Shown: positions 5,124 to 23,141 of the stretch, piece after piece
Position numbering within the stretch: position 1 is the stretch's first letter
How the letters are laid out: the number at the start of each line of letters is the position of its first letter
IMG/VR virus record: IMGVR_UViG_3300008116_007717
Location: 1-25,407 of that record
From: a virus
Direction: 5' to 3' (one strand)
Length of the DNA: 25,407 nt
Notes under the pieces: generated by a model
Told to the model about the DNA's origin: nothing
Databases searched by the model: none
What the model saw: only the letters and a program-made list of their open reading frames with translations
Translations under genes and position numbers: made by a program

Positions 5124-5124
5124 T

Positions 5125-6172: not shown

Positions 6173-6354
6173 AAGAAGCATTATTTGAAGTAATTAATAG
6201 TAGAAATGACGATGGTATTGATCTAGACTATCAATACGAACAATATCTACTAGAACAAAATAAAATTAAGCGTAATAATTTACGCAAGTCGCTTGAACAA
6301 GACGTAAGCGATAAACAAGTAAATACTGTCTTAAATAATATTAAGTTGAAATGA
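6160..6354 (+). CDS. Small hypothetical protein with strong Shine-Dalgarno
   Basis: 64 residues, charged and probably helical, not recognised. AGGAGG at 6149-6154 stands 5 bases before the ATG. It is one of only three perfect or near-perfect Shine-Dalgarno sites in the window, which makes this start secure. The gene overlaps its upstream neighbour by 13 bases and the queC start by 4 (ATGA), so translation is probably coupled to queC. Confidence 0.6.
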   Translation: MGKIKEALFEVINSRNDDGIDLDYQYEQYLLEQNKIKRNNLRKSLEQDVSDKQVNTVLNNIKLK

Positions 6355-7280: not shown

Positions 7281-7534
7281 TTTACATATTTAAATTTATT
7301 TTGGTAATGTTGGCTATGATAGTAGCTGATGTATGTTGGACTTTCTATTTTATTAAAGTAGAAGAACGCAAAGTAATAGCATCAGGTATTTGGTCATCAC
7401 TTATTATTATAGCAAGTGCCTTTATTACAACAAGTTATGTAGAAGATAGATCATTAGTACCTGCTGCTGTTTTAGGAGCATTTATTGGTACTGCTGGTAC
7501 TGTATATTATAAAAAGAAAAAAGAAAATAAATGA
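7277..7534 (+). CDS. Small membrane protein between queC and queE
   Basis: 85 residues with three predicted membrane segments (about residues 3-26, 35-54 and 60-77) and a Lys-rich cytoplasmic tail (Lys-Lys-Lys-Lys-Glu-Asn-Lys). It overlaps queC by ATGA upstream and queE by ATGA downstream, so the three are translated as one unit. It is far too small to be the known queuosine-precursor transporter YhhQ, which has about six segments. The function is unknown; a role in import or membrane anchoring of the pathway is only a guess from position. Confidence 0.65.
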   Translation: MIYIFKFILVMLAMIVADVCWTFYFIKVEERKVIASGIWSSLIIIASAFITTSYVEDRSLVPAAVLGAFIGTAGTVYYKKKKENK

Positions 7535-8361
7535 GTAAAATAGACCCACACAAACTACTTATTAGTAGTGATTTCTATTCAGTACAAGGTGAAGGTATTT
7601 CATCTGGGGTTCCATCGTATTTCGTTAGATTAGGTATCTGTAATCTAACTTGCGGTATGAGCCGTAAATTCGCTAACCAATTAGAGAAGGAAAAATCATT
7701 AGAAGACGGAGAAATATTCGTTGGTGATTTACACGCTGAAGGTAAAGCAACGTGGACTTGTGATTCTACAAGCCAATGGTTGTGGAGAGGTGTAGATCAA
7801 GAGTTTCAATATCTAATTGATAGATGGAAAGAACAAGGTATATATGATGATGTTAAAGAAGGTAATATTCATATTATTTGGACTGGTGGTGAACCAACAA
7901 TTAAAGGTCATCAAGCAGCTATTTGTAACTTCTTAGCTTATTGGTATGAGCAAGATATGTCAATCACACCATATAATGAAATTGAAACAAATGGTACTGT
8001 TTATATTGAGGATGAATTGTTTAGACAATTAGACCAAATTAATTGCTCCCCTAAATTAGCTAATTCAGGTATGTCTAAAAAGCAACGTTTTGTTGAACCT
8101 GCTCTTAGACGTATTATGGAACATGATAATTATCAATTTAAGTTTGTTATTAGTGTTGAAGATGATATCAAGGAAATATTTGATGAGTTTGTAACACCAC
8201 TTGAAGCACCACTTAAAAATATAGTTTGTATGCCTGGTTTAGATGATCAAGATGATTTCCACGAGCGTACTAATTTCGTTTTGGAAATGGCTAAAATCTA
8301 TAAATTTAGAGGTCTTACTCGTTTGCACATCTCAGCTTGGAATAAAACATTAAACGTATAA
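7531..8361 (+). CDS. queE: 7-carboxy-7-deazaguanine synthase, QueE-like radical SAM enzyme
   Basis: Radical SAM ring contraction of 6-carboxy-tetrahydropterin to 7-carboxy-7-deazaguanine. The QueE N-terminal block Ser-Val-Gln-Gly-Glu-Gly (17-22) is present, as are Thr-Gly-Gly-Glu-Pro (SAM binding) and Glu-Thr-Asn-Gly-Thr. The cluster-binding cysteines are Cys37 and Cys41, but the third of the usual Cys-x3-Cys-x2-Cys is not at 44. Cys77, in Thr-Trp-Thr-Cys-Asp-Ser-Thr, looks like the displaced third ligand, implying an insertion of about 33 residues in the cluster loop. QueE proteins with altered cysteine spacing are known, so function is plausible. The start overlaps the membrane gene by ATGA. 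Confidence 0.88.
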   Translation: MSKIDPHKLLISSDFYSVQGEGISSGVPSYFVRLGICNLTCGMSRKFANQLEKEKSLEDGEIFVGDLHAEGKATWTCDSTSQWLWRGVDQEFQYLIDRWKEQGIYDDVKEGNIHIIWTGGEPTIKGHQAAICNFLAYWYEQDMSITPYNEIETNGTVYIEDELFRQLDQINCSPKLANSGMSKKQRFVEPALRRIMEHDNYQFKFVISVEDDIKEIFDEFVTPLEAPLKNIVCMPGLDDQDDFHERTNFVLEMAKIYKFRGLTRLHISAWNKTLNV

Positions 8362-8362
8362 T

Positions 8363-8650
8363 ATGCCTAAATACAAAATAATGGGTGAACGTACCCTAGT
8401 AGAAGCTTGGAGTTACATCGTTGAAGCAGATGATGTCGATCAAGCAATTGAAATGGTTGAAGAATGTCCTGATGGATTATGTGAAGGAATTGAACGTCAA
8501 GATGACGATCAGTGTTATGAGGATAGTACTGAGTTTTCATTTCTGGAAGAGATTGAAGAGCCAAAGCCAAAGAAAAAGGCTAATCCAAAACAGATGAATG
8601 GAAAGAAAAGTGATGAACCATTTAAGAAAACCAGGAAAAAGAAAAAATGA
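8363..8650 (+). CDS. Hypothetical protein with basic C-terminal tail
   Basis: 95 residues. The first 50 form a compact acidic domain (Tyr-Ile-Val-Glu-Ala-Asp-Asp-Val-Asp-Gln-Ala-Ile pattern) resembling small phage proteins that have a sheet-helix repeat. The last 35 residues are almost entirely Lys, Pro, Arg and Asn, probably disordered and nucleic-acid binding. It follows queE by one base and overlaps the Smr-like gene by ATGA. No family assigned. Confidence 0.55.
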   Translation: MPKYKIMGERTLVEAWSYIVEADDVDQAIEMVEECPDGLCEGIERQDDDQCYEDSTEFSFLEEIEEPKPKKKANPKQMNGKKSDEPFKKTRKKKK

Positions 8651-8889
8651 AAGAATTAGATTTGCATGGGGTATCTCATTATGATGTACGAGATATAGTT
8701 GAAAATTTTGTTTTGCTTAATGCTAGAAACTTACCTATACGAATCATAACTGGATATTCAAATCACATGCGTATTCTTACTGAAAATATTTTAATAAAAC
8801 ATAGTTTTGACTATCATGTCCCTTCTCATAACGCAGGTGAAATAATAGTAGTACATGATAAAGAATATACCTTATGCAATTCACAATAA
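8647..8889 (+). CDS. Smr-domain protein
   Basis: 80 residues that amount to one stand-alone Smr (small MutS-related) domain. The signature Leu-Asp-Leu-His-Gly is at residues 4-8, followed by a helix and the Ile-Ile-Thr-Gly-Tyr-Ser-Asn-His strand-loop that corresponds to the usual Ile-Thr-Gly-x-Gly-x-His-Ser block. The C-terminal Gly-Glu-Ile-Ile-Val strand ends the fold. Smr domains bind or nick nucleic acids, and in cells some cleave RNA at stalled ribosomes. Here the loop glycine is Tyr-Ser. The gene overlaps its upstream neighbour by ATGA and its downstream neighbour by 16 bases. Confidence 0.75.
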   Translation: MKELDLHGVSHYDVRDIVENFVLLNARNLPIRIITGYSNHMRILTENILIKHSFDYHVPSHNAGEIIVVHDKEYTLCNSQ

Positions 8890-9110
8890 CATTAGAGCAA
8901 TTATATTTTGGTGTTTTCATTTTTGTATCAATAATGCAAATATATTTGATACGTAAAATTGATAAAACTAAAATTGAAATAACTAACCAAAATAAAGAAA
9001 TTCAGAAAATTTGGGAACAGATTGGAATGATAGCTTCAACAATTGCTATAAAACATTTGGAGCTTGAAAAGGAAGTTAGTAAATTAAAAGAAAAAATAGA
9101 AAAAGAATAA
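8874..9110 (+). CDS. Small membrane-anchored coiled-coil protein
   Basis: 78 residues with one membrane segment near the N-terminus (about 10-27) followed by a Lys/Glu-rich coiled coil (about 28-78). The layout is like that of the 93-residue protein at 22233. It overlaps the Smr-like gene by 16 bases and ends one base before folE. Function unknown; small spanin-like or inhibitor proteins have this shape, but nothing here identifies one. Confidence 0.6.
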   Translation: MQFTITLEQLYFGVFIFVSIMQIYLIRKIDKTKIEITNQNKEIQKIWEQIGMIASTIAIKHLELEKEVSKLKEKIEKE

Positions 9111-9111
9111 T

Positions 9112-9747
9112 ATGGAATTATTAAAAAAATCAAACGGTAATTTACCTCGCACACAGAAAGAAATCGATAAGATGATTGACAAAGCAGCTGATGCGTATGG
9201 TAAATTCCTTAATGCTGTTGGGTTTGACTATACAGCAGACAGACAAACAGTAGATACTCCTCGTCGTGTAGCTAAAGCATGGCTTAAGGATTTGATTGTA
9301 GGTAGCATTACTGACGAACCAAATATCACTGTATTCCCTAATGATGATGGTTATAATGGATTAGTAATCCAATCAGGTATTCCTATTGTTAGTATGTGTG
9401 CGCATCATAATCTTGCATTTACAGGTTATGCTACAGTAGCTTATGTTCCAGGAGAGCAAGTAGTAGGTTTATCTAAATTAAATCGTATTGTAGAGTGGTT
9501 CAGCCGTAGACCACAAATGCAAGAATCACTTACTCAACAGATTCATGATTATTTAGCTACCAAAATGGATTGCCCATCAGTAGCAGTAAGTATTGCTTGT
9601 AAACATACTTGTTGCTCACACAGAGGTATTAAACACCCATCTGTAATGACTACAAATAAATTCAGTGGTGTGTTTATGGAGAAGGATAATTTAATTCGTG
9701 AAGAATTCTTACACGCAATTGAGGTTAACGGAACAAAAATGAAATAA
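9112..9747 (+). CDS. folE: GTP cyclohydrolase I
   Basis: Opens and rearranges GTP to 7,8-dihydroneopterin triphosphate, the first step toward preQ0 (and folate). The zinc site is intact: Cys96 in Cys-Ala-His-His with His99, and Cys167 in His-Thr-Cys-Cys. Other family blocks are Asp-Thr-Pro-Arg-Arg-Val-Ala (48-54), Gly-Leu-Ser-Lys-Leu-Asn-Arg (119-125) and Ser-His-Arg-Gly (169-172). Length (211) is normal. It lies at the 3' end of the deazaguanine genes and shares TAATG with the phosphoribosyltransferase start. In phages it most often serves DNA 7-deazaguanine synthesis, which the neighbours support here. Confidence 0.95.
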   Translation: MELLKKSNGNLPRTQKEIDKMIDKAADAYGKFLNAVGFDYTADRQTVDTPRRVAKAWLKDLIVGSITDEPNITVFPNDDGYNGLVIQSGIPIVSMCAHHNLAFTGYATVAYVPGEQVVGLSKLNRIVEWFSRRPQMQESLTQQIHDYLATKMDCPSVAVSIACKHTCCSHRGIKHPSVMTTNKFSGVFMEKDNLIREEFLHAIEVNGTKMK

Positions 9748-10172
9748 TGGATAAGCGCTATTTAAATTGGAATGACGTTGATAGAGCAATTAATAGGATA
9801 GTTGCTAGTATTAATAGTAGTGGAGTTAAATTTGAAGCTGTTGGTGGATTACCTCGTGGAGGACTAATTCCAGCTGTAATATTATCTCATAGATTAAATA
9901 TTCCATTCGTAGCCCAAGCTAATATAGCATCAATAGAGGGCGACGTTTTAGTTGTAGATGATATTTGTGATTCAGGTAAAACATTAAAACGATTTAAATC
10001 AGAAAAAAATATCTATACAGCTACTTTACATTGGAAACAATCAGCTGAATATCAACCCCATTACTTTTGGGAAATTGCTTATGAAAATGAATGGATAGTT
10101 TATCCGTGGGAAAATAAAGATTCACAAACAATACAAGATTATAAAACTAATATAATTAATAAATTATGTTAA
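9747..10172 (+). CDS. Type I phosphoribosyltransferase
   Basis: 141 residues with the PRPP-binding motif Val-Leu-Val-Val-Asp-Asp-Ile-Cys-Asp-Ser-Gly-Lys-Thr near residues 67-79, and a Gly-Leu-Pro-Arg-Gly-Gly loop at 38-43. This is the fold of purine phosphoribosyltransferases such as xanthine-guanine phosphoribosyltransferase, which attach a base to PRPP. The base hood is small, so the substrate cannot be read from sequence; salvage of guanine or of a deazaguanine is possible given the neighbours. The start is inside the folE stop (TAATG) and the stop overlaps the next ATG by 7 bases. Confidence 0.85.
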   Translation: MDKRYLNWNDVDRAINRIVASINSSGVKFEAVGGLPRGGLIPAVILSHRLNIPFVAQANIASIEGDVLVVDDICDSGKTLKRFKSEKNIYTATLHWKQSAEYQPHYFWEIAYENEWIVYPWENKDSQTIQDYKTNIINKLC

Positions 10173-12279: not shown

Positions 12280-14886
12280 ATGTATCAAGCAATTTACATT
12301 CAACAGGGAGAGAACTATGCTAAAACAGTTCATCTTAAAGACGACAATGAAGGTTGGTTACATTTTGATTTCAAACCAACATATTATAAGACTGACCCTA
12401 ATGGTCAGTTTACTACTTTAGATGGTAAAAAAGTATCACCAACAAATAAGTTTGAGAAATCAAACTATGAAATTGATATACCTAACGAAACAAGGGTATT
12501 AATTGATGCATATTTAAATGAGGACGAGCCACCTAAATGGCACAATATAGTATTTTTAGATATTGAGTGTGAAATCGGTGGTGCTCTAACTCCTGAGAAT
12601 ATTAAAAATTCTCCTACTAAAATTACATCAATTGCTTTATATGACAAATCTACTCAACAAACTATTTGTTATATTCTTGATGAATCCAAATCAATGGAAT
12701 CAATTGAAGAAGAAGGTAAAAGTATTATTGCGTGTTATACTGAAAAAGAATTGTTGCACAAATTCCTAGATAAATGGGAAGAACTTGATCCTACAATTGT
12801 TGTAGGATGGAATAGTGAATTTTTTGATATTCCCTATTTGTATTTTAGAATATTAAGAGTATTTGATGCTAAAACAGCATCAAGATTATCTCCACTTAAA
12901 ATAATAGGAAACCTAAATCAATATGGTGCTGTTACTACAGTTGAATCTCAAAAAATGAGTAAAGATTATATTGATCTAGCAGGTATTAATCATTTAGACT
13001 ACTTTAATTTATTTAAAAAATACATTACTAAACAAGAACCATCTTACAAATTAGGTGATATTGGTAAAAAATATGTTGGTTTAGATAAAATCAAATATGA
13101 TGTTAGTTTAGATAAATTATTTAAAGAAGATAAGAAGAAATTTATTGAATACAATATTCGTGACGTTGAAATCCTTATTGAATTGGATAAAAAACTCCAA
13201 TTCATAGATTTAACACTCAATATTTGTCATTTGTGCCACGTGCCTTATGAAAACATTTATTGGTCAACAATGTTAAATGAAGGAGCAATCTTGACATACC
13301 TTAAACGTCAGAATATTGTTTCAATGAATAAACCAACTACTACAAACCCTGAATTAAAGTTAACAATTGGGGAAGAATATGCTGGTGGTTATTTGAAAGA
13401 TCCAATTCCTGGCTTGTATAGCGATGTGATTGATCTTGACTTTACCTCACTATACCCATCTATTATTCGTTCGTTGAATATGGGAGTAGAAACATTAGTA
13501 GGTAATGTTAAAATAAGAGATAAATACGATAGTAACTGGACTTTACTTGATTTGAAAGCATTAAAACCAAGCACAAAAATTACCATTGAAAATCCTAAAC
13601 GTCAAGTAACTGAAATTACTGCTGGTAAGCTAGTTGAAATGGTTGAAAAAAATAAATTAACAATTGCTGCTAGTGGTGGTTTATTTAGAAGTGACAAGCG
13701 AAGCGTTGTATGTGATGTATTATCAGATTGGTTTGATAAACGTGTTGAATATAAGAACTTGATGAAGGATGCTTTTAAGAAAAAGAAAGATCCTGTATTA
13801 GGTGAGTTTTACAACAAACGTCAACATGCATTTAAAATTAAATTAAATGACGTTTACGGGTGTTTTGCTCAAAACGGATGGAGGTATACGGATGGATATA
13901 AAGTTATTTCAAACGCAATTACATTAACAGGACAAAGACTAATTCAGGAATCAATCAAAGCGATGAATCGAATGATTAATACTGAGATTGGAACTGAAGA
14001 TGTTGATTATGTAATTACAAGTGATACCGATTCAATGTTTATTAGAGTAGGGGATGTTGTAAAATATAGATGGCCTGATTTAGATGTAAATGATAGAGAT
14101 GCTCGTATTGCTAAAATATTAGAGGTAGCAGCTGATTATCAAAAACAAATCAACAAATATCTTAACCAACACGTTCGCGATTTATTCAATATTCAGGATG
14201 ATCATTATTTTGAATTAAAACAAGAGGTGATACTTGAAAGAGGTTATTTCGCAGGTAAAAGACGTTATGCCCAATACATTATTAATAAAGAAGGTGTTAC
14301 CACTGAAGAATTAGATATTAAGGGACTTGATTTGATGAAATCTAATTTCCCTCCATTATTCAGAGAATTTGGTGAAAACCTAATTAAGCAAATAATGTTT
14401 GGTAAAACCAAGAAAGAAATTGATTTATTAATTTCATCATTTAAAAAGAGTATAGCTAGTAGGGAAATAGTTGAAATTGCTAAACCAACTGGAGTTAAGA
14501 AAATTAGAGAATATATTGAGCGTGGACCTACAGCATCTAAAATATTTAGTGATTTAAAATCTAAAGCTCCAATTAATACTAAAGCAGCTATCTATTACAA
14601 TGATTTGTTGCGTTTCAAAAAATTGGACAAAAAATATCCAACAATCAAAGAGTTTGAAAAAATATACTATGTGTATTTGAAGGATAATCCATATCGACTT
14701 GATTGCATAGGATTCTTTGGAGTTGATGATCCACCAGAAATTATAGAATTTATTGAAAAATATGTTGATAAGGAAAAAACGTTTGACTCAACGTTCCTAA
14801 ACAAGTTACAAGGTGTATATGATGATTTAAAATGGTCATTTCCATCTCTTAATGAGTACGCCAACAAGTTTTTTGTTATTAGTTAA
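12280..14886 (+). CDS. DNA polymerase, family B (T4 gp43-like)
   Basis: Replicative DNA polymerase with 3'-5' proofreading. The exonuclease site is complete: Asp94/Glu96 (Phe-Leu-Asp-Ile-Glu), Asn178/Asp183 (Trp-Asn-Ser-Glu-Phe-Phe-Asp), and Tyr291/Asp295 (Tyr-Asn-Ile-Arg-Asp). Polymerase motif A is Asp-Phe-Thr-Ser-Leu-Tyr-Pro-Ser (387-394), motif B is Lys-x3-Asn-x2-Tyr-Gly (519-527) and motif C is Asp-Thr-Asp-Ser (582-585). Length (868) is close to T4 gp43 (898), with no intein or split. The last residues after about 845 probably form the clamp-binding tail. With clamp, clamp loader and helicase in the same window it completes most of a T4-like replisome. Confidence 0.97.
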   Translation: MYQAIYIQQGENYAKTVHLKDDNEGWLHFDFKPTYYKTDPNGQFTTLDGKKVSPTNKFEKSNYEIDIPNETRVLIDAYLNEDEPPKWHNIVFLDIECEIGGALTPENIKNSPTKITSIALYDKSTQQTICYILDESKSMESIEEEGKSIIACYTEKELLHKFLDKWEELDPTIVVGWNSEFFDIPYLYFRILRVFDAKTASRLSPLKIIGNLNQYGAVTTVESQKMSKDYIDLAGINHLDYFNLFKKYITKQEPSYKLGDIGKKYVGLDKIKYDVSLDKLFKEDKKKFIEYNIRDVEILIELDKKLQFIDLTLNICHLCHVPYENIYWSTMLNEGAILTYLKRQNIVSMNKPTTTNPELKLTIGEEYAGGYLKDPIPGLYSDVIDLDFTSLYPSIIRSLNMGVETLVGNVKIRDKYDSNWTLLDLKALKPSTKITIENPKRQVTEITAGKLVEMVEKNKLTIAASGGLFRSDKRSVVCDVLSDWFDKRVEYKNLMKDAFKKKKDPVLGEFYNKRQHAFKIKLNDVYGCFAQNGWRYTDGYKVISNAITLTGQRLIQESIKAMNRMINTEIGTEDVDYVITSDTDSMFIRVGDVVKYRWPDLDVNDRDARIAKILEVAADYQKQINKYLNQHVRDLFNIQDDHYFELKQEVILERGYFAGKRRYAQYIINKEGVTTEELDIKGLDLMKSNFPPLFREFGENLIKQIMFGKTKKEIDLLISSFKKSIASREIVEIAKPTGVKKIREYIERGPTASKIFSDLKSKAPINTKAAIYYNDLLRFKKLDKKYPTIKEFEKIYYVYLKDNPYRLDCIGFFGVDDPPEIIEFIEKYVDKEKTFDSTFLNKLQGVYDDLKWSFPSLNEYANKFFVIS

Positions 14887-15994: not shown

Positions 15995-16040
15995 CAGGTT
16001 TTATTATTAACAATTTAAAAACTATCTTAGGAGGTTTATT

Positions 16041-16457
16041 ATGACACTAATGAGAACACACACAGACCCATTTGATGTCTTGTTCAAGAATTTCTTCAAC
16101 AACGACTCATTCTTTGCTCCTGCTTTGGAGACAAAAATTACACACCCAGTAGACATTTACGAAACAAAAGAAGGCCTGCATTTTGAAATTGCATGTACTG
16201 GTCTAACTAAAGAAGATGTTAACATTAACATCGAAGGGGACGTTTTACGCGTTACCTATGAAAAAGACGGAGAAAGTGAAATTGACGTGACTAACTTTAT
16301 CCATAGGGGTATTGCTCGTCGTTCATTTAATCTAGGTTATAAAGTATCATCACGTTTTGATCTTCAAAATGCTGATGCCCAAATGAATAACGGTTTATTA
16401 CTAATTTCTATTCCGTTCGCGGAACAAGCCAAACCTAAAGTGTTGGCTATTAAATAA
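16041..16457 (+). CDS. Small heat-shock protein (Hsp20/alpha-crystallin)
   Basis: ATP-independent holdase chaperone. The 138 residues hold an alpha-crystallin domain from about 30 to 125: Val-Asp-Ile-Tyr-Glu-Thr, the Thr-Gly-Leu-Thr-Lys-Glu-Asp-Val strand-turn, and the Asn-Asn-Gly-Leu-Leu-Leu-Ile-Ser-Ile-Pro block matching the family's A-x3-NGVL-like signature. The C-terminal Leu-Ala-Ile acts as the I-x-I oligomerisation motif. AGGAGG at 16029-16034 stands 6 bases before the ATG, a strong Shine-Dalgarno that is rare in this window. It has its own promoter-like element and is bracketed by a 12-bp inverted repeat. It is first in a chaperone island with groES and groEL. Confidence 0.92.
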   Translation: MTLMRTHTDPFDVLFKNFFNNDSFFAPALETKITHPVDIYETKEGLHFEIACTGLTKEDVNINIEGDVLRVTYEKDGESEIDVTNFIHRGIARRSFNLGYKVSSRFDLQNADAQMNNGLLLISIPFAEQAKPKVLAIK

Positions 16458-16463
16458 TCAAGA

Positions 16464-16475
16464 GTTAGCGCCCTA
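16464..16475 (+). repeat. Inverted repeat, right arm, flanking hsp20
   Basis: GTTAGCGCCCTA begins 6 bases after the hsp20 stop and is the exact reverse complement of 15983-15994. No U-run follows, so a simple terminator is unlikely. In the transcript the two arms could pair across the whole gene. Confidence 0.75.
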
Positions 16476-16507
16476 CTTGGTTATTTAAATTATTTTACTT
16501 ATATTTA
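16476..16507 (+). promoter_or_regulatory. Bacteroidota-like promoter before groES-groEL
   Basis: TTGGTTA at 16477-16483 and TATATTTA at 16500-16507 are separated by 16 bases, and the groES ATG follows 17 bases later. The 14-mer TTGGTTATTTAAAT (16477-16490) is repeated exactly at 23143-23156, before the clamp loader, with the same distance to its -7 element. Confidence 0.52.
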
Positions 16508-16524
16508 AAAAAAAATAAAAATTC

Positions 16525-16812
16525 ATGATACAACCTTTAAATGGACACATTATCCTAACCCCTGTGGAAGAAATAGAGCAGATGGTAGGTAATATTATTA
16601 TTCCCGATTTGGGAAAAGAAAGACCCGAAATGGGAGAAGTAGTTGCTGTAAGTGATACATTCAACTGGAATAGAGGTGAATGGAAAAAAACAGAACTTGC
16701 TGTTGGTGATAAAGTATTGATTCCTAAATTAGGAGCAATGAAAATCACTGTTGATGGACAAGATTATTTTATTTGTAAAGAAAACGATATTTTAGGAATT
16801 GTAAAAAATTAA
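16525..16812 (+). CDS. groES: Co-chaperonin GroES
   Basis: 95-residue lid of the GroEL chamber. The fold begins Ile-Gln-Pro-Leu-Asn-Gly and includes a mobile loop (about 15-32) whose Ile-Ile-Ile-Pro triad replaces the usual Ile-Val-Leu that grips GroEL. The dome/roof region contains Val-Gly-Asp-Lys-Val-Leu-Ile-Pro (about 66-73), and the C-terminal strand is Asp-Ile-Leu-Gly-Ile-Val. Length is standard, unlike the longer and divergent T4 gp31. It is 2 bases upstream of groEL and shares its promoter. A paired phage GroES and GroEL implies a self-sufficient chamber, probably for virion proteins. Confidence 0.93.
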   Translation: MIQPLNGHIILTPVEEIEQMVGNIIIPDLGKERPEMGEVVAVSDTFNWNRGEWKKTELAVGDKVLIPKLGAMKITVDGQDYFICKENDILGIVKN

Positions 16813-16814
16813 TT

Positions 16815-18461
16815 ATGGTAGAAACATCATTTGGTATTGATTTAAAAAATAAGTTACTTGCTGGTATTCAAAAGTTGAATAACAGTGTTTCTTCCACATT
16901 AGGTCCTGGTGGTAGAACTGTTTTGATTAAAGATGGAAACGGTGAAATTAAAGTAACTAAGGACGGTGTTACAGTTGCTAAAGCATTTTCTGAATTACCT
17001 GACCAGGTAGAAGATTTAGGTGCTCAACTTGTAAAACAAGTATCTATCAAATCAGCTAATGAAGCTGGTGATGGTACAACAACATCTACTTTACTTGCAA
17101 CAACAATGGTAGAAGAAGGACTTAAATTATTAGGTCAAGGTTCTAATCCAGTAGAAGTAAAGAAAGGTATTGATCATGGTGTTAAGTTAGTAGTTGATGA
17201 ACTTAAAAAACTTGCCCTTGATATTAGCGATGAGAAACAAATTAAAGCCGTAGCAACCATTTCAGGTAACAATGATGAAGAAATTGGTAATTTAATTGCC
17301 ACTGCTCTTGAAAAAGTAGGTCGTGATGGTGTTGTAGCTATTGAAGAAAGCAAATCGGGTGAAACGTCACTTGAAGTAGTTGAAGGTATGCAATTTGAGC
17401 GTGGTTATAAATCACCTTACTTTGTTACAGATAATAATACAATGTCAGCAATTATTGAAGATGCGCATGTATTAATTTTCGATGGTCGTATTACTACAGC
17501 AGCAGAATTACTTCCAGTATTACAAAAAGTAAGTGCTGAAAATAAATCATTGTTAATTGTTGCTGAAGATATTGATGGTGAAGCATTAGCTACATTGATT
17601 GTAAACAAAGCTAGAGGTATTATTAAAGTTATTGCTGTTAAAGCTCCTGATTTTGGTGAACGTAGAACAATGGCCCTTGAAGATTTAGCTACTGTGACAG
17701 GTGGTCAGGTTATTAGTAAAGAAAAAGGATTAAAACTTGATAAAATCCCAGTTGCTAATTATACTCAATATCTTGGTAAAGCAAGAACAGTTAACGTTAA
17801 TAAAGATAAGACAACTATTATTGATGGTGCTGGTACTGAAGAAGCAATTACTGCACGCGCAGAAGAAATTAAATCACAGATTGATAAAGCAACTTCGTTC
17901 TTTGAAAAAGAAAAATTACAAGAACGTTTAGGTAAATTGATTGGTGGTGTAGCTATCGTATCAGTTGGTGGTAATAGTGAAATTGAAATTAAAGAAAAGA
18001 AAGATAGAGTTGAAGATGCATTATTTGCAACTAAAGCAGCATTAGCCGAAGGTATTGTACCTGGTGGTGGTGTTTCGTTGATTAAAGCATTTAATAATAT
18101 CTTAGGTAAAATAGGTGATACTAGTGATAATACTATTGCAGGTATTAAAATTGTAAAACAAGCCTGTTACGCACCATTTAAGAAAATTATGGATAATGCT
18201 GGTAAAGATAACTGGTATGAAATCCTCCATTTAATATTTGAAGAAGATAAAGAAGCAAATAACTTTATTACGTTCAATGTTAAAACCGATACTATAACAA
18301 ACGCCTTAAACGAAGGATTACTTGACCCCGTTAAAGTAACTCGTATCGCGCTTGAAAATGCTGCTTCTGTAGCCGGAACAATATTAACAACAGAATCAGT
18401 TGTATTTGAAAAAAAGGACGAAAAAGAAGGTGGTAACAATATGATGAACCTAGGAATGTAA
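16815..18461 (+). CDS. groEL: Chaperonin GroEL
   Basis: Full-length 548-residue group I chaperonin that folds proteins in an ATP-driven double-ring chamber. ATP-site blocks Leu-Gly-Pro-Gly-Gly-Arg (29-34), Lys-Asp-Gly-Val-Thr-Val (49-54) and Gly-Asp-Gly-Thr-Thr-Thr (85-90) are intact, as are Arg-Arg-Thr-Met-Ala-Leu-Glu-Asp and Gly-Gly-Gly-Val in the later equatorial part. The C-terminus ends Asn-Asn-Met-Met-Asn-Leu-Gly-Met, a short variant of the usual Gly-Gly-Met repeat. Complete groEL genes are uncommon in phages, most of which carry at most a GroES-like protein; here it forms a pair with groES and follows hsp20. Confidence 0.96.
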   Translation: MVETSFGIDLKNKLLAGIQKLNNSVSSTLGPGGRTVLIKDGNGEIKVTKDGVTVAKAFSELPDQVEDLGAQLVKQVSIKSANEAGDGTTTSTLLATTMVEEGLKLLGQGSNPVEVKKGIDHGVKLVVDELKKLALDISDEKQIKAVATISGNNDEEIGNLIATALEKVGRDGVVAIEESKSGETSLEVVEGMQFERGYKSPYFVTDNNTMSAIIEDAHVLIFDGRITTAAELLPVLQKVSAENKSLLIVAEDIDGEALATLIVNKARGIIKVIAVKAPDFGERRTMALEDLATVTGGQVISKEKGLKLDKIPVANYTQYLGKARTVNVNKDKTTIIDGAGTEEAITARAEEIKSQIDKATSFFEKEKLQERLGKLIGGVAIVSVGGNSEIEIKEKKDRVEDALFATKAALAEGIVPGGGVSLIKAFNNILGKIGDTSDNTIAGIKIVKQACYAPFKKIMDNAGKDNWYEILHLIFEEDKEANNFITFNVKTDTITNALNEGLLDPVKVTRIALENAASVAGTILTTESVVFEKKDEKEGGNNMMNLGM

Positions 18462-18462
18462 T

Positions 18463-18472
18463 TATATTTATA
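18463..18472 (+). promoter_or_regulatory. TATATTTATA motif before the oxygenase-carbamoyltransferase trio
   Basis: TATATTTA at 18463-18470, with TATTTATA at 18465-18472, starts one base after the groEL stop and ends 15 bases before the next ATG. No -33 box at the usual distance. It may be a separate promoter that uncouples the trio from groEL. Confidence 0.35.
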
Positions 18473-18487
18473 GGAAATATAGTTATA

Positions 18488-19159
18488 ATGACTCGTTCTG
18501 ATTATTTTCATATACCTAATTTTTGCCCACCTGAAATCTGCGATTTTCTAGTTCGTGAGTATGATAGAGATAGTGATATGCTCAATCTTACAAGTGAATT
18601 TGATAACGCAGATTTCTCTTATTTTGATAAAACAAATCTCCATAAACAAGGACTTAGAGATAAAAGAGCTAAAGTATTTGTAGAGCAACTGGCTTATAAT
18701 ACAAGACAAAAGCATATTGACTTTTATAAACCCGAGCAAATATGGTCTGATACTCAGGTATTAGTAAAATGGTTTCCAGGTCGCGATCTAGGAGTACATG
18801 CTGATAATGCCTTTTGGCCTGATGGAAGACCAAATTATGTTCATTTTAGACAATTCTCTTCAATAGTTTATCTTAATAATGCCAGTGAATATGAAGGTGG
18901 AGAGTTCTTTTTTATTGATCCTTATTTAGAAATTAAACCACAAAAAGGAGACTTGATAGGATTTAAATCAGGAATGGAATGGGCTCATGGAGTAAAAATG
19001 ATTACTTCAGGAGCTCGTTATACTTTATCTCTTTGGTTTACAGACGATATTGAGTATGCTATATGGGATAATGATAATTATAGAAAAGACATTGATGAAA
19101 AAAGTGAACAATTACAAATAGATCCTTTGGATCGTTCTAACATTATAAAGTTATGGTAA
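18488..19159 (+). CDS. 2-oxoglutarate/Fe(II) oxygenase, prolyl 4-hydroxylase-like
   Basis: 223 residues with a double-stranded beta-helix. The iron ligands are His104 and Asp106 (Val-His-Ala-Asp-Asn) and His167 (Trp-Ala-His-Gly-Val), and the 2-oxoglutarate-binding Arg is Arg177. A Tyr-Glu-Gly-Gly-Glu-Phe-Phe-Phe strand and Lys-Pro-Gln-Lys-Gly-Asp-Leu lie between them, as in prolyl 4-hydroxylases. It would hydroxylate a protein side chain, a nucleobase or a sugar; the substrate cannot be read from sequence. The stop overlaps the carbamoyltransferase start by 7 bases, so the pair is translationally coupled, which suggests that the new hydroxyl is the acceptor for the next enzyme. Confidence 0.88.
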   Translation: MTRSDYFHIPNFCPPEICDFLVREYDRDSDMLNLTSEFDNADFSYFDKTNLHKQGLRDKRAKVFVEQLAYNTRQKHIDFYKPEQIWSDTQVLVKWFPGRDLGVHADNAFWPDGRPNYVHFRQFSSIVYLNNASEYEGGEFFFIDPYLEIKPQKGDLIGFKSGMEWAHGVKMITSGARYTLSLWFTDDIEYAIWDNDNYRKDIDEKSEQLQIDPLDRSNIIKLW

Positions 19160-20784
19160 TATATGGAATATTTCTTGGTGCTCACCAATATTCAACAGCA
19201 TTAATTAAAGATGGAAAAATATTATATGCTATTGAAAATGAAAGAATAACAAGAGTAAAGCATGGATATAGTTGGTTTGAATCACCTAAAGCATCTTATG
19301 TTGCTATTGAAAAAGCAACAGGTATAAAATTTGAAGATGTAGATTATATTGCTCTTTCAGATCCTGGACAACTAAGATATGATTTGGGCGCCTATAATAA
19401 TTCTCCTGATAAAGTAGCTAACTATTATTTTTGGAAACAAAAGATAAGAGATTTTAATAAACCTATTATTGCTTTTGAACATCATCAATGTCATGCCGCT
19501 GTGGGTTATTATTTAAGCGGATTTCAAGAGAAAACTTTAATTCTTACTATGGATGGTGGTAGTAATGAAAGAAACTACACTACAATTTGGTTAGGTGAAA
19601 AAGGTAACATGACTAAGGTACACCAAAATATAGAGCCGTTAGAGGGTTCATTAGGGTGTATTTGGTTTGAATTATGTAAACACTTTGATTACACACCTGT
19701 TAAAGATGAAGGAAAAATAATGGGCTTAGCACCTCAGGGCAAATTAAATTCAGACTTTTATAATATATTAGATGAAATATGTCGTTATCAAGGTAATTTA
19801 AGTTTTAGTACACCTCATAATTTTCCATTTGCTAATTGGGCTTTTGCTCAATGCGAGGGCAATGGATTTTTTGATACACCCGAGAAAAAAGCAGATATAG
19901 CGTTTACAACACAAAAACATTTTGAGGATAATATCATACCATACATTAAAGACCTTAAAGCTAGATACCCTGAATATACTAAATTAGTCATGTCAGGAGG
20001 TTTATTTGCTAATGTTAAGGCGAATCAAAAAATAAATGAGCAGTGTGGGTTTGAAGAGGTATTTATTGCCCCACCAATGGGTGATGAAGGTTTATCATTA
20101 GGTGCTGCTATGTTAGCTTCTTGGAAATTAGGTGAATGGGAACATAAACCAACTAAAGATGTATTTTTTGGTTTAGAATATACTGATGAACAAGTTATGG
20201 ATGCTGCTTTAAAATTTAATGTTAAAGCAAAAGGTAGATACACTAATGATATGGAATTTATCGTATCTGAATTAACAAACAGAAAGGTATTTGGTATATT
20301 CAATGGTCGATTTGAATTAGGACCTAGAGCATTAGGTAACAGAAGTGTTATAATGGAAGCAACAAATCGTTATAATCATTCTCATCTTAATCAGCGATTT
20401 GGAAGAGACGAAACAATGCCTTTTGCCCCTATAGTATTATATGATAAAGCAGAAGAAGTATTTGATATCAAATCATCTAAATTTGCTTCTGAATTTATGA
20501 CGTTATGTCATAATGTAAAAGAAGAATGGAAGGAAAAAATTCCAGCAGTTACTCATTTAGATGGTACTGCACGTCCTCAAATTGTAAGACTAGATGTACA
20601 TCCTGTATTTTACAATATATTACACTTTTATGACAAATGGACTAATATTCCTGTCTTAATTAATACTTCGTTTAACGGACATGGTGAACCTATTATTGAT
20701 ACACCTGAACAAGCATTTATCCATTTAGAAAAAGGTTCTATTGATTATTTAATTATAAACAACATGTTATATGCTAGAAACTAA
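19153..20784 (+). CDS. O-carbamoyltransferase, NodU/TobZ/CmcH family
   Basis: 543 residues covering both expected domains. The N-terminal Kae1-like domain has Ser-Thr-Ala-Leu, Glu-Asn-Glu-Arg (28-31), the metal-binding Glu-His-His-Gln-Cys-His (109-114), and Thr-Met-Asp-Gly-Gly-Ser (132-137). The C-terminal YrdC-like domain has Phe-Glu-Leu-Gly-Pro-Arg-Ala-Leu-Gly-Asn-Arg-Ser and Asn-Thr-Ser-Phe-Asn, near residues 390 and 498. Family members carbamoylate hydroxyls of Nod factors and antibiotics from carbamoyl phosphate and ATP. In phages such genes have been linked to nucleobase or surface modification. It overlaps the oxygenase by 7 bases and the next gene by 14, so the three act together. All conserved residues I looked for are present. 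Confidence 0.93.
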   Translation: MVIYGIFLGAHQYSTALIKDGKILYAIENERITRVKHGYSWFESPKASYVAIEKATGIKFEDVDYIALSDPGQLRYDLGAYNNSPDKVANYYFWKQKIRDFNKPIIAFEHHQCHAAVGYYLSGFQEKTLILTMDGGSNERNYTTIWLGEKGNMTKVHQNIEPLEGSLGCIWFELCKHFDYTPVKDEGKIMGLAPQGKLNSDFYNILDEICRYQGNLSFSTPHNFPFANWAFAQCEGNGFFDTPEKKADIAFTTQKHFEDNIIPYIKDLKARYPEYTKLVMSGGLFANVKANQKINEQCGFEEVFIAPPMGDEGLSLGAAMLASWKLGEWEHKPTKDVFFGLEYTDEQVMDAALKFNVKAKGRYTNDMEFIVSELTNRKVFGIFNGRFELGPRALGNRSVIMEATNRYNHSHLNQRFGRDETMPFAPIVLYDKAEEVFDIKSSKFASEFMTLCHNVKEEWKEKIPAVTHLDGTARPQIVRLDVHPVFYNILHFYDKWTNIPVLINTSFNGHGEPIIDTPEQAFIHLEKGSIDYLIINNMLYARN

Positions 20785-21532
20785 TTGGCCCCAAGTTAAT
20801 ATTAGATACCATGATTATTTTAGTGGTCCTTTTGTTGAAATAAAAACAACTGAAATAGAAAAATGGGGTGAATTTTTAATTCGTTTTTACGAAATAATAG
20901 GTGATAAAAAGGAATTAGTAGACCAAAAAGCTATTTGGGGAAACAACTGGTATGAAACTCCTAGAAAATTTTACACTAACTGGTATACTGAAGTATTAGG
21001 GTTTCAAAATAATAAAATAGTAAAAGTAGGATGGGATAGGTTTGATTTATATGGAAAAAAAGTAGCTATATGGCTTCAAAATGGATATAATAATATTTTA
21101 GATGTTAATTTCCATTTAGAAACACTCCCAGTAATAGAAGAATTTGCTAATAAACATAAGTGTTATGTAACAGTAGTTTCCGATTTTGCTCCATCATTAT
21201 CATCTTCAAATAAACATATCAGTTTTATGTCTATGTTAACTGCAGATGAAGCAAGATCATCTTATTATGCTACTTATAGAATAGGAATATACGCAGGGGA
21301 AGAAAATTATATACGATTACCTTGGGATGATTTAAAATCACAACCAGTATTAAATTCAAATAGATTACATTATGACCAGTTTCATCCTCGTAACGTAATT
21401 AAATTAAACCTATCTCCATCAGAAATTGCACGTGACATTTTATTTGGGTTTGATCATAACGATTTGAGTTACAATAACTATTACCAATCAACAAAATCTA
21501 TACTTTCTTCAAAGCAAGTTTGGTTACCCTAA
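20771..21532 (+). CDS. Unrecognised protein coupled to the carbamoyltransferase
   Basis: 253 residues, soluble, rich in Tyr, Trp and Asn; no family recognised. The central part has an alternating strand-helix pattern around Lys-Lys-Val-Ala-Ile-Trp-Leu-Gln-Asn-Gly and Cys-Tyr-Val-Thr-Val-Val-Ser-Asp-Phe-Ala, which could be a Rossmann-like or glycosyltransferase-like fold. That is weak. There is no signal peptide or membrane segment. The ATG lies 14 bases inside the carbamoyltransferase gene. It may supply a transferase, substrate-recognition or prior step for the hydroxylation-carbamoylation pathway. Confidence 0.75.
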   Translation: MLETNWPQVNIRYHDYFSGPFVEIKTTEIEKWGEFLIRFYEIIGDKKELVDQKAIWGNNWYETPRKFYTNWYTEVLGFQNNKIVKVGWDRFDLYGKKVAIWLQNGYNNILDVNFHLETLPVIEEFANKHKCYVTVVSDFAPSLSSSNKHISFMSMLTADEARSSYYATYRIGIYAGEENYIRLPWDDLKSQPVLNSNRLHYDQFHPRNVIKLNLSPSEIARDILFGFDHNDLSYNNYYQSTKSILSSKQVWLP

Positions 21533-21550
21533 TATATCGTCATATATTTA
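21519..21550 (+). promoter_or_regulatory. Bacteroidota-like promoter before the lipoprotein gene
   Basis: TTTGGTTA at 21519-21526 (in the last codons of the preceding gene) and TATATTTA at 21543-21550 are 16 bases apart. This spacing is the same as before groES, the AT-hook gene and the clamp loader. The lipoprotein ATG is 38 bases downstream. Confidence 0.5.
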
Positions 21551-21588
21551 CAGGGAATAAGTTATATTTTTAATTTAAAAAAACAATT

Positions 21589-21759
21589 ATGAAAAAAATC
21601 ATGTTCGCATTGCTAGTTGCAACTACATTGGTAGCTTGTGGTGGTAATGGTGCTTCTACTGAAGCCAAAGTTGATTCTACTGCAGTATCTACACCTGATA
21701 CTACAGTTGCTGTTATTGACTCAACAAAAGTTGATTCTGTAGCTGCTGAGGTGAAGTAA
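21589..21759 (+). CDS. Small lipoprotein
   Basis: 56 residues. Lys-Lys is followed by a hydrophobic signal stretch and a lipobox Leu-Val-Ala-Cys (lipid-bearing Cys17). The mature 40 residues are Ser, Thr, Val and Asp-rich, low-complexity and probably unfolded. Tiny lipoproteins with this Val-Asp-Ser-Thr-like composition are common in Bacteroidota. The lipidated product would sit in the inner or outer membrane and could alter the surface during infection. It has its own promoter-like element and lies immediately before tRNA-Ser. Short length and low complexity could cause automated gene callers to miss it. Confidence 0.78.
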   Translation: MKKIMFALLVATTLVACGGNGASTEAKVDSTAVSTPDTTVAVIDSTKVDSVAAEVK

Positions 21760-21767
21760 TCACCAAC

Positions 21768-21854
21768 GGTGAGATGGCAGAGCGGTTGAATGCGTCGGTC
21801 TTGAAAACCGAAATACTGGAAACGGTATCTGGGGTTCGAATCCCTGTCTCACCG
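21768..21854 (+). tRNA. tRNA-Ser (anticodon UGA)
   Basis: Seven-pair acceptor stem (GGTGAGA with TCTCACC), discriminator G, and an anticodon stem TCGGT/ACCGA around a CTTGAAA loop giving TGA. A long variable arm typical of serine follows, then a TTCGAAT T-loop whose stem has two wobble pairs. CCA is not encoded. It reads UCA codons, frequent in this AT-rich phage. Confidence 0.95.
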
Positions 21855-21874
21855 CAATTTTAAAAAATTAGATT

Positions 21875-22102
21875 ATGTTTTGGATATTTTACATTATTAG
21901 TGTTTTATATTGTTTCTACCATTTAGCAAAAAGATGGAATCGAGATGTAATGCCTGGTGGGTTAGGAATTAATCCTGGATTGGATACATTAGCTGTTTTA
22001 TTTTTAGCTCCTGTTTTGATGGTAGTAGATGTAACATTAACTTGGATTCGCATTTATAAAGAAGCAGAAGAAGCAAGGAGAAAAAACGATAAGGTATTTT
22101 AA
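21875..22102 (+). CDS. Small membrane protein between the tRNA genes
   Basis: 75 residues with two hydrophobic segments, about 3-18 and 38-60, separated by a Gly/Pro-rich loop (Pro-Gly-Gly-Leu-Gly-Ile-Asn-Pro-Gly), and a charged C-terminus (Glu-Ala-Glu-Glu-Ala-Arg-Arg-Lys). No family recognised. It is encoded between tRNA-Ser and tRNA-Leu, 20 bases after the former, and probably shares their transcript, so the mRNA must be processed at both ends. Confidence 0.62.
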   Translation: MFWIFYIISVLYCFYHLAKRWNRDVMPGGLGINPGLDTLAVLFLAPVLMVVDVTLTWIRIYKEAEEARRKNDKVF

Positions 22103-22108
22103 TCTTAT

Positions 22109-22194
22109 GCCTGGGTGGAGTAATGGCAGCCTCGAAAGACTTAAAATCTTTTGGACAGAAAACGTCCGTGTCGGTTCGAGTCCGACCCCAGGTA
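22109..22194 (+). tRNA. tRNA-Leu (anticodon UAA)
   Basis: Acceptor stem of seven pairs counting a G-T closing pair, discriminator A, and an anticodon stem AAAGA/TCTTT around CTTAAAA giving TAA. A long variable arm is followed by a perfect T-stem GTCGG/CCGAC around TTCGAGT. CCA is not encoded. It reads UUA, a very frequent leucine codon here. Confidence 0.95.
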
Positions 22195-22197
22195 CTA

Positions 22198-22213
22198 GTT
22201 GTTGTTCTTTGAC
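22198..22213 (+). repeat. Inverted repeat, left arm, with boxA-like core
   Basis: GTTGTTGTTCTTTGAC is the exact reverse complement of 22525-22540. It begins 3 bases after tRNA-Leu. The inner TGTTCTTTGACA (22203-22214) matches the E. coli boxA antitermination element TGCTCTTTAACA at 10 of 12 bases. Confidence 0.8.
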
Positions 22214-22232
22214 ATATAAGGAGAAATAAATT

Positions 22233-22514
22233 ATGGATACACTATCATTCGTTTTAGGGATAGCATTTGTGGTGGTTATTGCTGTTGCAATAGTTGCTGT
22301 TTATGCTTTCGTTAAGGTAAAAGAAGTAAAAGAACAAATTGAAAATAACGAGCGCAACATGTCACAAGAAATAGAGCGTGTATATAGAAATTTTCATGAA
22401 GAGAATAGAGCAATATATGAGCATATCAGTAATCGAGTGCGAGATATTGAGTCTATGATAGATTCACGCTTAGATAAGTTACAAAATAAACCAAAACAAT
22501 TATTAAAAGACTAA
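22233..22514 (+). CDS. Single-span membrane protein with coiled coil
   Basis: 93 residues. A strongly hydrophobic Val/Ala/Ile-rich segment (about 7-27) is followed by a charged coiled coil (about 30-85). AAGGAG at 22218-22223 stands 9 bases before the ATG, a rare strong Shine-Dalgarno here. The gene is bracketed by a perfect 16-bp inverted repeat, with the left arm between tRNA-Leu and the ribosome site. The shape is like that of the 8874 product. No family recognised; it may be a transferred cassette that kept its own translation signal. Confidence 0.68.
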   Translation: MDTLSFVLGIAFVVVIAVAIVAVYAFVKVKEVKEQIENNERNMSQEIERVYRNFHEENRAIYEHISNRVRDIESMIDSRLDKLQNKPKQLLKD

Positions 22515-22524
22515 AATAAAATAA

Positions 22525-22540
22525 GTCAAAGAACAACAAC
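22525..22540 (+). repeat. Inverted repeat, right arm, followed by a T-run
   Basis: GTCAAAGAACAACAAC begins 10 bases after the 22233 stop and is the exact reverse complement of 22198-22213. ATTTTTTC follows directly (22541-22549). Pairing of the two arms across about 310 bases would place a 16-bp stem just before six T, an unusual long-range terminator-like arrangement. Confidence 0.75.
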
Positions 22541-22552
22541 ATTTTTTCTCCT

Positions 22553-22562
22553 CATATTTATA
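22553..22562 (+). promoter_or_regulatory. CATATTTATA motif before the second oxygenase
   Basis: CATATTTA at 22553-22560 with exact TATTTATA at 22555-22562, directly followed by TTC and the ATG at 22566. No -33 box. If it is a promoter the transcript would be essentially leaderless. Confidence 0.28.
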
Positions 22563-22565
22563 TTC

Positions 22566-23141
22566 ATGATTATAATAGATGGTTTTGTAAGAGATGAAGC
22601 ATTGCTTCGTAAAATTCAACAGTCAAACGAATTTTGGAACTCAGGTTATTATTGGTGGAATGGATGGTGGAATACTCCAGCCTCTACTTTACGCCATCAG
22701 TTGATTGAATATATTTGGCGCAATCATTGTCCTTTAGCTGAATCTATTTATTTAGATGGCTTTGAACATTGGGTAGGTGTTTATAATGCTAATGAAACTG
22801 TTTCTAATGTTGGTGGTGAGTTTTCACTTATTTCCCATTTTGATAAAGATGAAAAATTATGGAATGAAACAGGTAAAGTAGTTACTCCTAAATTAGGTAC
22901 TATTTTTTATCCTGATCCGTGTAATGATGAAATGGAAGGTGGTTATCTTAAAGTATGGAAAACTCATAATACTGATTTTAACGCTCCCTATGAACTTATT
23001 GAAGCGAAATACAATCGCTTAATTATATTTGACGCTAGTCAATTACATGCTGTTACTCCTGTTACTAAAGGAACAAGAAAAGCAATCGCTATTAATTTAT
23101 GGGATGAATCCCCAAGCGATGCTCCAAACATGCTATTCTAA
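22566..23141 (+). CDS. 2-oxoglutarate/Fe(II) oxygenase (second, divergent)
   Basis: 191 residues with the double-stranded beta-helix motif set: His91 and Asp93 (Ser-His-Phe-Asp), His161 (Leu-His-Ala-Val) and Arg171 (Gly-Thr-Arg-Lys), with a Gly-Gly-Tyr-Leu strand in between. The N-terminus is Trp/Tyr-rich (Tyr-Tyr-Trp-Trp-Asn-Gly-Trp-Trp). It shares only the motif pattern with the 18488 enzyme, not close sequence. It is followed by the clamp loader with its own promoter. The substrate is unknown; nucleic-acid, protein or small-molecule oxidation are all possible. Confidence 0.8.
   Translation: MIIIDGFVRDEALLRKIQQSNEFWNSGYYWWNGWWNTPASTLRHQLIEYIWRNHCPLAESIYLDGFEHWVGVYNANETVSNVGGEFSLISHFDKDEKLWNETGKVVTPKLGTIFYPDPCNDEMEGGYLKVWKTHNTDFNAPYELIEAKYNRLIIFDASQLHAVTPVTKGTRKAIAINLWDESPSDAPNMLF

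Follow-up and report, generated by a model that had tools for sequence, protein, structure and literature searches.

We analyzed the virus record IMGVR_UViG_3300008116_007717 (25.4 kb; its 25,407 nt are called the window hereafter), with a focus on three genes at positions 18488-21532. A first-pass annotation, made from the letters alone, had read them as one pathway in which a prolyl-hydroxylase-like oxygenase installs a hydroxyl, a carbamoyltransferase caps it, and an unrecognised third protein chooses the target. We find that the conserved unit is the pair formed by the carbamoyltransferase and the third protein, and that the latter resembles, in its predicted structure, one half of a TibC-type glycosyltransferase. 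The three open reading frames (ORFs) are in series on the + strand, and the overlaps reported earlier (7 nt between genes 1 and 2, 14 nt between genes 2 and 3) match the coordinates. The closest relative of the window is the contig IMGVR_UViG_3300032320_002688 (G001, 76.6 kb), whose corresponding locus (L003) has the same gene order and identical overlaps, of 7 nt (8001-8007) and 14 nt (9619-9632). A third contig (L013) has genes 2 and 3 and retains the 14-nt overlap (478-491); since it begins within gene 2, it gives no information on the oxygenase. Purifying selection acts on each of the three genes, with dN/dS values of ~0.12, 0.09 and 0.30 for genes 1, 2 and 3 between the window and L003 (83, 90 and 66% amino acid (aa) identity); for gene 3 the value is 0.13 when the window is compared with L013. 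The promoter-like motif attributed to the trio was not recovered: there is no sigma-70-type site on the + strand in the 26-nt gap (18462-18487) between groEL and gene 1, and a scan of 16000-22600 for sites of this type alone gave 28, without excess over shuffled sequences (32.2, standard deviation 6.3). The features of the locus are the following:

18488..19159, + strand: gene 1, 2-oxoglutarate (2OG)-Fe(II) oxygenase, 223 aa; PF13640 match
19153..20784, + strand: gene 2, NodU/TobZ-type O-carbamoyltransferase, 543 aa; two Pfam domains, residues aligned to TobZ, subfamily clade 100/99
20771..21532, + strand: gene 3, half-TibC protein, 253 aa; TIGR04414, Foldseek and VIA; C-lobe not found in the window or G001
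20771..21046, + strand: beta-barrel domain of the half-TibC protein, residues 1-92 (TibC 1-97); AlphaFold (AF2) model, TibC borders from PMC4358343
21059..21448, + strand: N-lobe and part of the linker of the half-TibC protein, residues ~97-226 (TibC 98 to ~199); alignment, AF2 model and VIA
22566..23141, + strand: second 2OG-Fe(II) oxygenase, 191 aa; same place in L003 and L013

The third protein was rightly called unrecognised as far as Pfam and PHROGs are concerned, where it has no family match, yet it can be recognised by NCBIfam and by structure. Used alone as a query, it gave one weak match (5e-4, a full-length Mel-JY01 protein) in 50,697 phage records and none in viral contigs, and the phmmer search against PDB was not significant (0.12 and 0.19 for the TibC chains). 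In NCBIfam it matches TIGR04414, the family of TibC-type O-heptosyltransferases, with an E-value of 1e-8 restricted to positions 48-168 of the 374 of the profile. Its score, 34.6 bits, is under the curated cut-off of 200, and we do not file it as a member of this family. The structure prediction proposed for this gene, made with AF2 from a nine-sequence alignment, proved informative. The model has a mean predicted local distance difference test (pLDDT) score of 70, with blocks up to residue 170 mostly at 80-92 and poor values at 174-212 and 227-253. With it, Foldseek returns TibC at ranks 1-20 (top E-value 2.6e-10), and VIA aligns residues 6-228 of the model with residues 21-199 of TibC (Z 14.3, root-mean-square deviation 3.8, 171 residues aligned). 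The next entry after TibC has a Z of 9.3 and covers the barrel alone, as do mainly the VIA alignments under rank 2. An earlier model built from two sequences failed beyond residue 92, and its Foldseek matches, FN3-like barrels, were discarded.

TibC runs from a beta-barrel (1-97) through an N-lobe (98-195) and a linker (196-217) to a C-lobe (218-406), and the residues described as holding ADP-heptose (Thr226, Lys230, Arg286, Trp305) are all in the C-lobe (PMC4358343). The third protein ends after the linker, where the C-lobe would start. We found no C-lobe match in the window or in G001, where a lone C-lobe elsewhere on the contig was also searched for. As modelled, the third protein thus corresponds to the N-terminal half of the TibC-type O-heptosyltransferase fold: it has the beta-barrel and N-lobe and lacks the donor-binding lobe. 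Because it has no C-lobe, it has neither the ADP-heptose pocket nor the iron finger; in the model its architecture is that of the acceptor half of a protein O-glycosyltransferase, and it cannot bind a sugar nucleotide in the way of TibC. The position of Asp110, the candidate base of TibC (PMC4358343), is a Phe in all three members of the lineage (window, L003 and L013). More generally, the LGD motif is eroded in the halves: its GD is present in 16/17 full-length rows, whereas among 84 halves the G is never found, the D is found in 14 and an E stands in its place in 51.

The association of this half protein with the carbamoyltransferase is very strong. In a first scan of relatives (80 carbamoyltransferase loci), the loci nearest to the window enzyme (L032-L034 and L057, 38-40%) had a tandem carbamoyltransferase with an overlapping half-TibC gene of ~214 aa behind it. 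We aligned this subfamily and ran a second scan with patterns derived from the carbamoyltransferase peptides only, which gave 80 phage loci. A half-TibC ORF touches a carbamoyltransferase gene in 78 of them, 70 times downstream and mostly overlapping it, with gaps of -49 to +3 nt in 74/78 and of 169 nt in the other four. The pair is found in 73/75 loci after removal of the five contigs that seeded the query, in 52/54 clusters at 95% identity and in 18/18 at 60%. Only one of the 78 half-TibC ORFs has a C-lobe in the same ORF. As our iterated hidden Markov model (HMM) could drift, we also give the count obtained with a strict HMM trained only on the N-halves of full-length TibC proteins, which detects 59/78. 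TIGR04414 detects 5/5 clear halves in another scan, two of them weakly (0.008 and 0.0016). With the same test, the partner is found in none of 74 other viral carbamoyltransferase loci (L037-L111 minus L057; L032-L036 and L057, as members of the subfamily, were not counted) and in 1/80 carbamoyltransferase loci of prokaryotic genomes. The coupling of genes 2 and 3 noted at first is therefore far stronger than could be known from one sequence. In a 29-row tree, the carbamoyltransferases with the partner form one clade (support 100/99; 15 rows, including L035, which has a full-length TibC, and L036). This tree omits six rows of a previous 21-row tree (four long or partial, two near kept rows), which had placed the window pair weakly beside the 5-hydroxymethylcytosine (5hmC) type (66/89); the 29-row tree separates the half-TibC clade. 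A mirror-tree correlation of 0.87 was also obtained, but it lacks a neutral control and we give it no weight.

A few loci of this kind deserve mention. The single genome-collection locus with the pair (L192) lies on a 6.4 kb contig binned as Lokiarchaeota, which is possibly a mis-binned phage contig. Five loci (L182, L183, L154, L158 and L186) have a second carbamoyltransferase within ~730 nt after the pair, and L182 has an additional half-TibC ORF at 7434-8219.

The carbamoyltransferase itself belongs to the family first assigned to it, NodU/TobZ. It matches Carbam_trans_C (3.8e-52) and Carbam_trans_N (1.1e-38), both above cut-off, as well as the decarbamoylnovobiocin carbamoyltransferase (5e-53) and the TobZ chains (7e-51). 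Residues H11, H110, H114, D134 and D311 of the window enzyme align with H14, H114, H118, D137 and D338 of TobZ, which we take to be the catalytic His and the metal ligands. The window enzyme and 20 of the 21 aligned phage enzymes have H, H, H, D and D at these five positions, the exception being L004, which is cut off and misses the first His. By this alignment, the catalytic residues of the window enzyme are intact, and it is predicted to carbamoylate a hydroxyl.

The family of the oxygenase was also well chosen. Gene 1 matches 2OG-FeII_Oxy_3 (PF13640) with an E-value of 8.6e-12 (46.3 bits, cut-off 27), has a putative HxD...H iron site (H104/D106/H167) and a 2OG-binding R177, both assigned by eye, and its best relative of solved structure by sequence match is collagen prolyl 3-hydroxylase 1 (2.8e-12 over 115-192). 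Its neighbourhood is another matter. In the subfamily, 1/80 loci has an oxygenase within 50 nt of the carbamoyltransferase, namely that of G001, a relative of the window phage at 90%, and 4/80 have one within 3 kb. In the general set of 80 carbamoyltransferase loci, our own HMM found an oxygenase adjoining in 9 and within 3 kb in 25. Among 14 cyanophage and pelagiphage records that carry oxygenases and other carbamoyltransferases, the two are within 3 kb in 5, when 3.2 are expected by random shifts (P 0.19). The search for the trio across phage genomes thus gave opposite answers for its two junctions: genes 2 and 3 are neighbours almost everywhere in the subfamily (78/80), whereas the oxygenase rarely adjoins them. 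We reject the trio as a conserved unit and as the single pathway proposed at first; the unit is the pair, and the gene 1 oxygenase is a lineage-specific neighbour outside the conserved core.

The genes found around the pair in relatives give clues on its substrate. In L035, a full-length TibC-like gene (TIGR04414 5.6e-94, above cut-off) occupies the half-TibC slot, where it overlaps the carbamoyltransferase after a GT4-like glycosyltransferase (GT) gene. The operon of L127 encodes GT9/GT4, the carbamoyltransferase, the half-TibC, a 320-aa ORF, a full TibC (1.5e-84) and a collagen-like fibre (7e-39) rich in GTS and GSS triplets. In L137 and L141 the half-TibC is fused to a GT2 domain, so that it looks like an exchangeable acceptor-handling part, and a tail-sheath-like ORF (by eye) follows. 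G001 has a glycan island with two GT4-like genes, GT2, GT10, RmlC, epimerases, sugar methyltransferases, APS kinase and two sulfotransferases, as well as the two halves of an HldE-type heptose kinase and adenylyltransferase (2.9e-38 and 9.2e-29, both below the family cut-off). The same contig encodes (L012:13647-16643) a collagen-like fibre with 283 uninterrupted GXY triplets, Lys at Y only (18/18) and a Peptidase_S74 C-terminus. Beside it, an 816-aa protein (L012:10542-12992) matches LH3 (2.4e-27) and the procollagen galactosyltransferase 1 COLGALT1 (6e-14); it is a fusion of GT4, a procollagen-galactosyltransferase-like GT25 and a lysyl-hydroxylase-like 2OG oxygenase. In P-SSM2 and S-CAM1, genes annotated as heptose kinase/adenylyltransferase and phosphoheptose isomerase come immediately after the carbamoyltransferase, with tail-fibre genes nearby. 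Together with the activity of TibC-type enzymes, which glycosylate proteins (PMC4358343), the L035 slot, the L127, L137 and L141 loci and the G001 island suggest a protein-bound glycan as the target.

We propose, with moderate confidence, that the products of genes 2 and 3 are the two components of one O-carbamoyltransferase and would form a physical complex. The carbamoyltransferase would make carbamoyl-adenylate and pass the carbamoyl to a hydroxyl. The half-TibC would retain the barrel and N-lobe, the parts assumed to face the polypeptide acceptor in TibC-type enzymes, and would present a (glyco)protein to its partner. The most likely acceptor would be a glycan carried by a protein of the virion, probably a collagen-like tail fibre that is repetitive and rich in Ser/Thr. 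Heptose is a candidate sugar, with a precedent assigned to WapO (PMC8005017); direct modification of Ser, Thr or hydroxylated residues seems less likely. In this lineage, the oxygenase ahead of the pair most likely hydroxylates fibre residues as an extra, probably on the same or a related fibre. The second oxygenase (22566..23141) is, from its position, possibly a further modifier. The early suggestion of a target-handling role for the third protein is supported insofar as this protein corresponds to the acceptor-side half of a protein O-glycosyltransferase.

Several observations weigh against this proposal. The authors of the TibC structure go no further than suggesting substrate recognition or integrity as possible roles of the barrel (PMC4358343), and acceptor binding by the N-lobe is an analogy with enzymes of the GT-B fold in general. 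TIGR04414 detects 5/9 half proteins in one scan, and the four missed rest on our own iterated HMM. Collagen-like genes are found in 12/49 half-TibC contigs and 6/40 other carbamoyltransferase contigs, a non-significant difference (the samples were 49 loci from the subfamily's 80 and 40 from the other 74, near-duplicates and many short contigs being left out by eye), and a GXY run is within the fetched flanks of 1/80 subfamily loci. The window, which ends before the island, has no fibre or glycan genes, and this context comes from relatives. The oxygenase is, as said, rarely adjacent to the carbamoyltransferase. Finally, with midpoint rooting, the half-TibC clade and two 5hmC-type enzymes fall on one side of the tree (100/98).

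This last point is why we keep, at a very low probability, the carbamoylation of a DNA base, in which the oxygenase or another enzyme would hydroxylate the base and the carbamoyltransferase cap it, as for 5hmC. The base was among the targets first suggested, and it has a published precedent: a phage-derived 5hmC carbamoyltransferase is proven, its gene lying beside a thymidylate-synthase homologue (PMC8670742). The phage of the window also seems to modify bases, given the genes that it carries at 4478-10172, which are likely of the 7-deazaguanine (preQ0-type) DNA-modification kind according to their family matches: PTPS/QueD-like (4478), QueC (6351), radical-SAM QueE-like (7531; weak, Pfam E-value 0.12), GTP cyclohydrolase I (9112) and phosphoribosyltransferase (9747). 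However, residues and neighbourhood both speak against this option. We found no thymidylate-synthase or dCMP-hydroxymethylase homologue in the window or G001, which are both fragments, while the two cultured phages of the 5hmC type, BF503P1 and HHU4 (records W18 and W19), have two thymidylate-synthase homologues each. At the positions flagged as discriminating by the authors of the 5hmC study (TobZ W408, G421 and R423; PMC8670742), the window has F383, G395 and R397 (F/G/R), whereas the enzymes of BF503P1 and HHU4 have I/C/T and I/G/T, in a comparison made without the residues of the published enzyme itself. Among the 21 aligned enzymes, the 19 outside the 5hmC type all have an Arg at the R423 position. 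Moreover, the oxygenase is of the prolyl-hydroxylase type PF13640, with no TET/JBP family among its Pfam matches, and the partner is half of a protein glycosyltransferase. The original trio, with the oxygenase making the very hydroxyl that is then capped and the third protein picking the target, is only slightly less improbable: the overlapping genes of the window and G001 fit it, and L036 has in series a carbamoyltransferase, a 155-aa ORF without family match (TIGR04414 included) and a 2OG oxygenase, which matches P0001 over 23 residues only, but the rarity of the oxygenase next to the pair and its chance spacing in the 14 other records argue the other way.

Two other explanations are unlikely without being far-fetched. 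The pair could carbamoylate a heptose or another sugar of the lipopolysaccharide (LPS) or capsule of the host, for example against superinfection. A carbamoyl on the inner-core heptose has been assigned to WapO, a putative Pseudomonas carbamoyltransferase (PMC8005017), pelagiphage glycosyltransferases have been interpreted as O-chain modifiers (PMC7029224), and heptose genes adjoin the carbamoyltransferase in P-SSM2 and S-CAM1. Yet TibC-type enzymes act on proteins (PMC4358343), the L127 operon closes with a fibre gene and the ORF after L137 and L141 is tail-sheath-like; we also noticed no membrane or lipid-linked step beside the pair, though none was searched for. Slightly less probable is that the half-TibC is a structural, stabilising partner or an assembly chaperone without a say in the choice of acceptor, the carbamoyltransferase finding its substrate alone. 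Relatives in other phages (0/74) and in prokaryotic genomes (1/80) do lack the partner, and the active-site LGD motif is lost in the halves, whereas the GT2 fusions and the full-length TibC in the L035 slot speak for acceptor handling, and the low dN/dS also counts against this reading. We consider a bolder version of the two-component proposal doubtful: the dismembered glycosyltransferase would be the acceptor-recognition subunit of a protein O-carbamoyltransferase, and Ser, Thr or oxygenase-hydroxylated residues of the fibre, or a fibre-bound heptose, would be carbamoylated. If true, this would be a post-translational modification and a two-part enzyme, with a substrate that in this lineage would be an animal-like hydroxylated, glycosylated collagen fibre. 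We know of no report of such protein carbamoylation or of such a two-part enzyme.

In the open-licence literature of PubMed Central (PMC), we found no description of this pair, of TibC-like genes with carbamoyltransferases in phages, or of a phage collagen hydroxylase; within that literature, the coupling of a carbamoyltransferase to a half glycosyltransferase without donor lobe seems not to have been described. The third protein shares the barrel and N-lobe fold of the TibC/BAHT family, full-length members of which adjoin the carbamoyltransferase in L035 and share its operon in L127, but differs from it by the lack of the C-lobe, the Phe at the Asp110 position and the low family score. Gene 2 shares both Pfam domains and the histidine and metal-ligand residues of the NodU/TobZ/GdmN/NovN O-carbamoyltransferases, and differs by its dedicated partner gene. 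The 5hmC enzyme is likewise a phage-borne TobZ-like protein that would follow hydroxylation, but its described neighbour is a thymidylate-synthase homologue (PMC8670742), and two cultured-phage enzymes of its type differ at the three discriminating positions. WapO is a similar case of sugar carbamoylation assigned to a carbamoyltransferase gene, but of the chromosomal LPS core, and no half-TibC partner is reported for it in what PMC8005017 says of this gene. The G001 fusion recalls the collagen lysyl hydroxylase/glucosyltransferase L230 of Mimivirus (PMC9614988) in joining a lysyl hydroxylase to GT25, and lies beside a collagen-like fibre; unlike L230, it is found in a tailed phage, outside the window, and has an extra GT4 domain. 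A study of cyanophage S-SZBM1 treats a TobZ-type carbamoyltransferase as a nucleotide-synthesis (pyrimidine biosynthesis) gene (PMC9146016). Our results give phage carbamoyltransferases a partner and a likely class of substrate, and delineate a conserved half GT-B enzyme that accompanies a transferase of another kind. They join phage oxygenases, heptose genes and collagen-like fibres in one idea, that phages may chemically decorate their own fibres, which could affect adsorption, stability or recognition.

Other elements were noticed along the way. Two cultured phages, L030 (OP172670.1, Bacteroides phage) and L031 (PQ619753.1, Acinetobacter phage), have a carbamoyltransferase annotated as hypothetical near thymidylate-synthase homologues, with Thr at the TobZ R423 position, and are by these features candidate 5hmC carbamoyltransferase phages. 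XQU50148.1 (L008, PQ898602.1, 5977-7569) is a carbamoyltransferase deposited as "2OG-Fe(II) oxygenase". In G001, APS kinase, an NMNAT-like nucleotidyltransferase and two sulfotransferases (L009:7788-9792 and 13090-14034) possibly form a phage sulfation route for a glycan or protein. In the window, Hsp20, GroES and GroEL genes (16041-18461, named by eye) immediately precede the trio, as they do in L003, and a small lipoprotein-like ORF (21590-21757; signal peptide with LVACGG, by eye) is right behind it and is also found in L013 (1212-1448); it is possibly a lysis or superinfection-exclusion protein. The protein at 5119-5913 matches only PHROGs of unknown function (best phrog_19058). Finally, a GIY-YIG homing endonuclease-like ORF (1175-1846, by eye) lies between the thioredoxin-like and ribonucleotide reductase genes.

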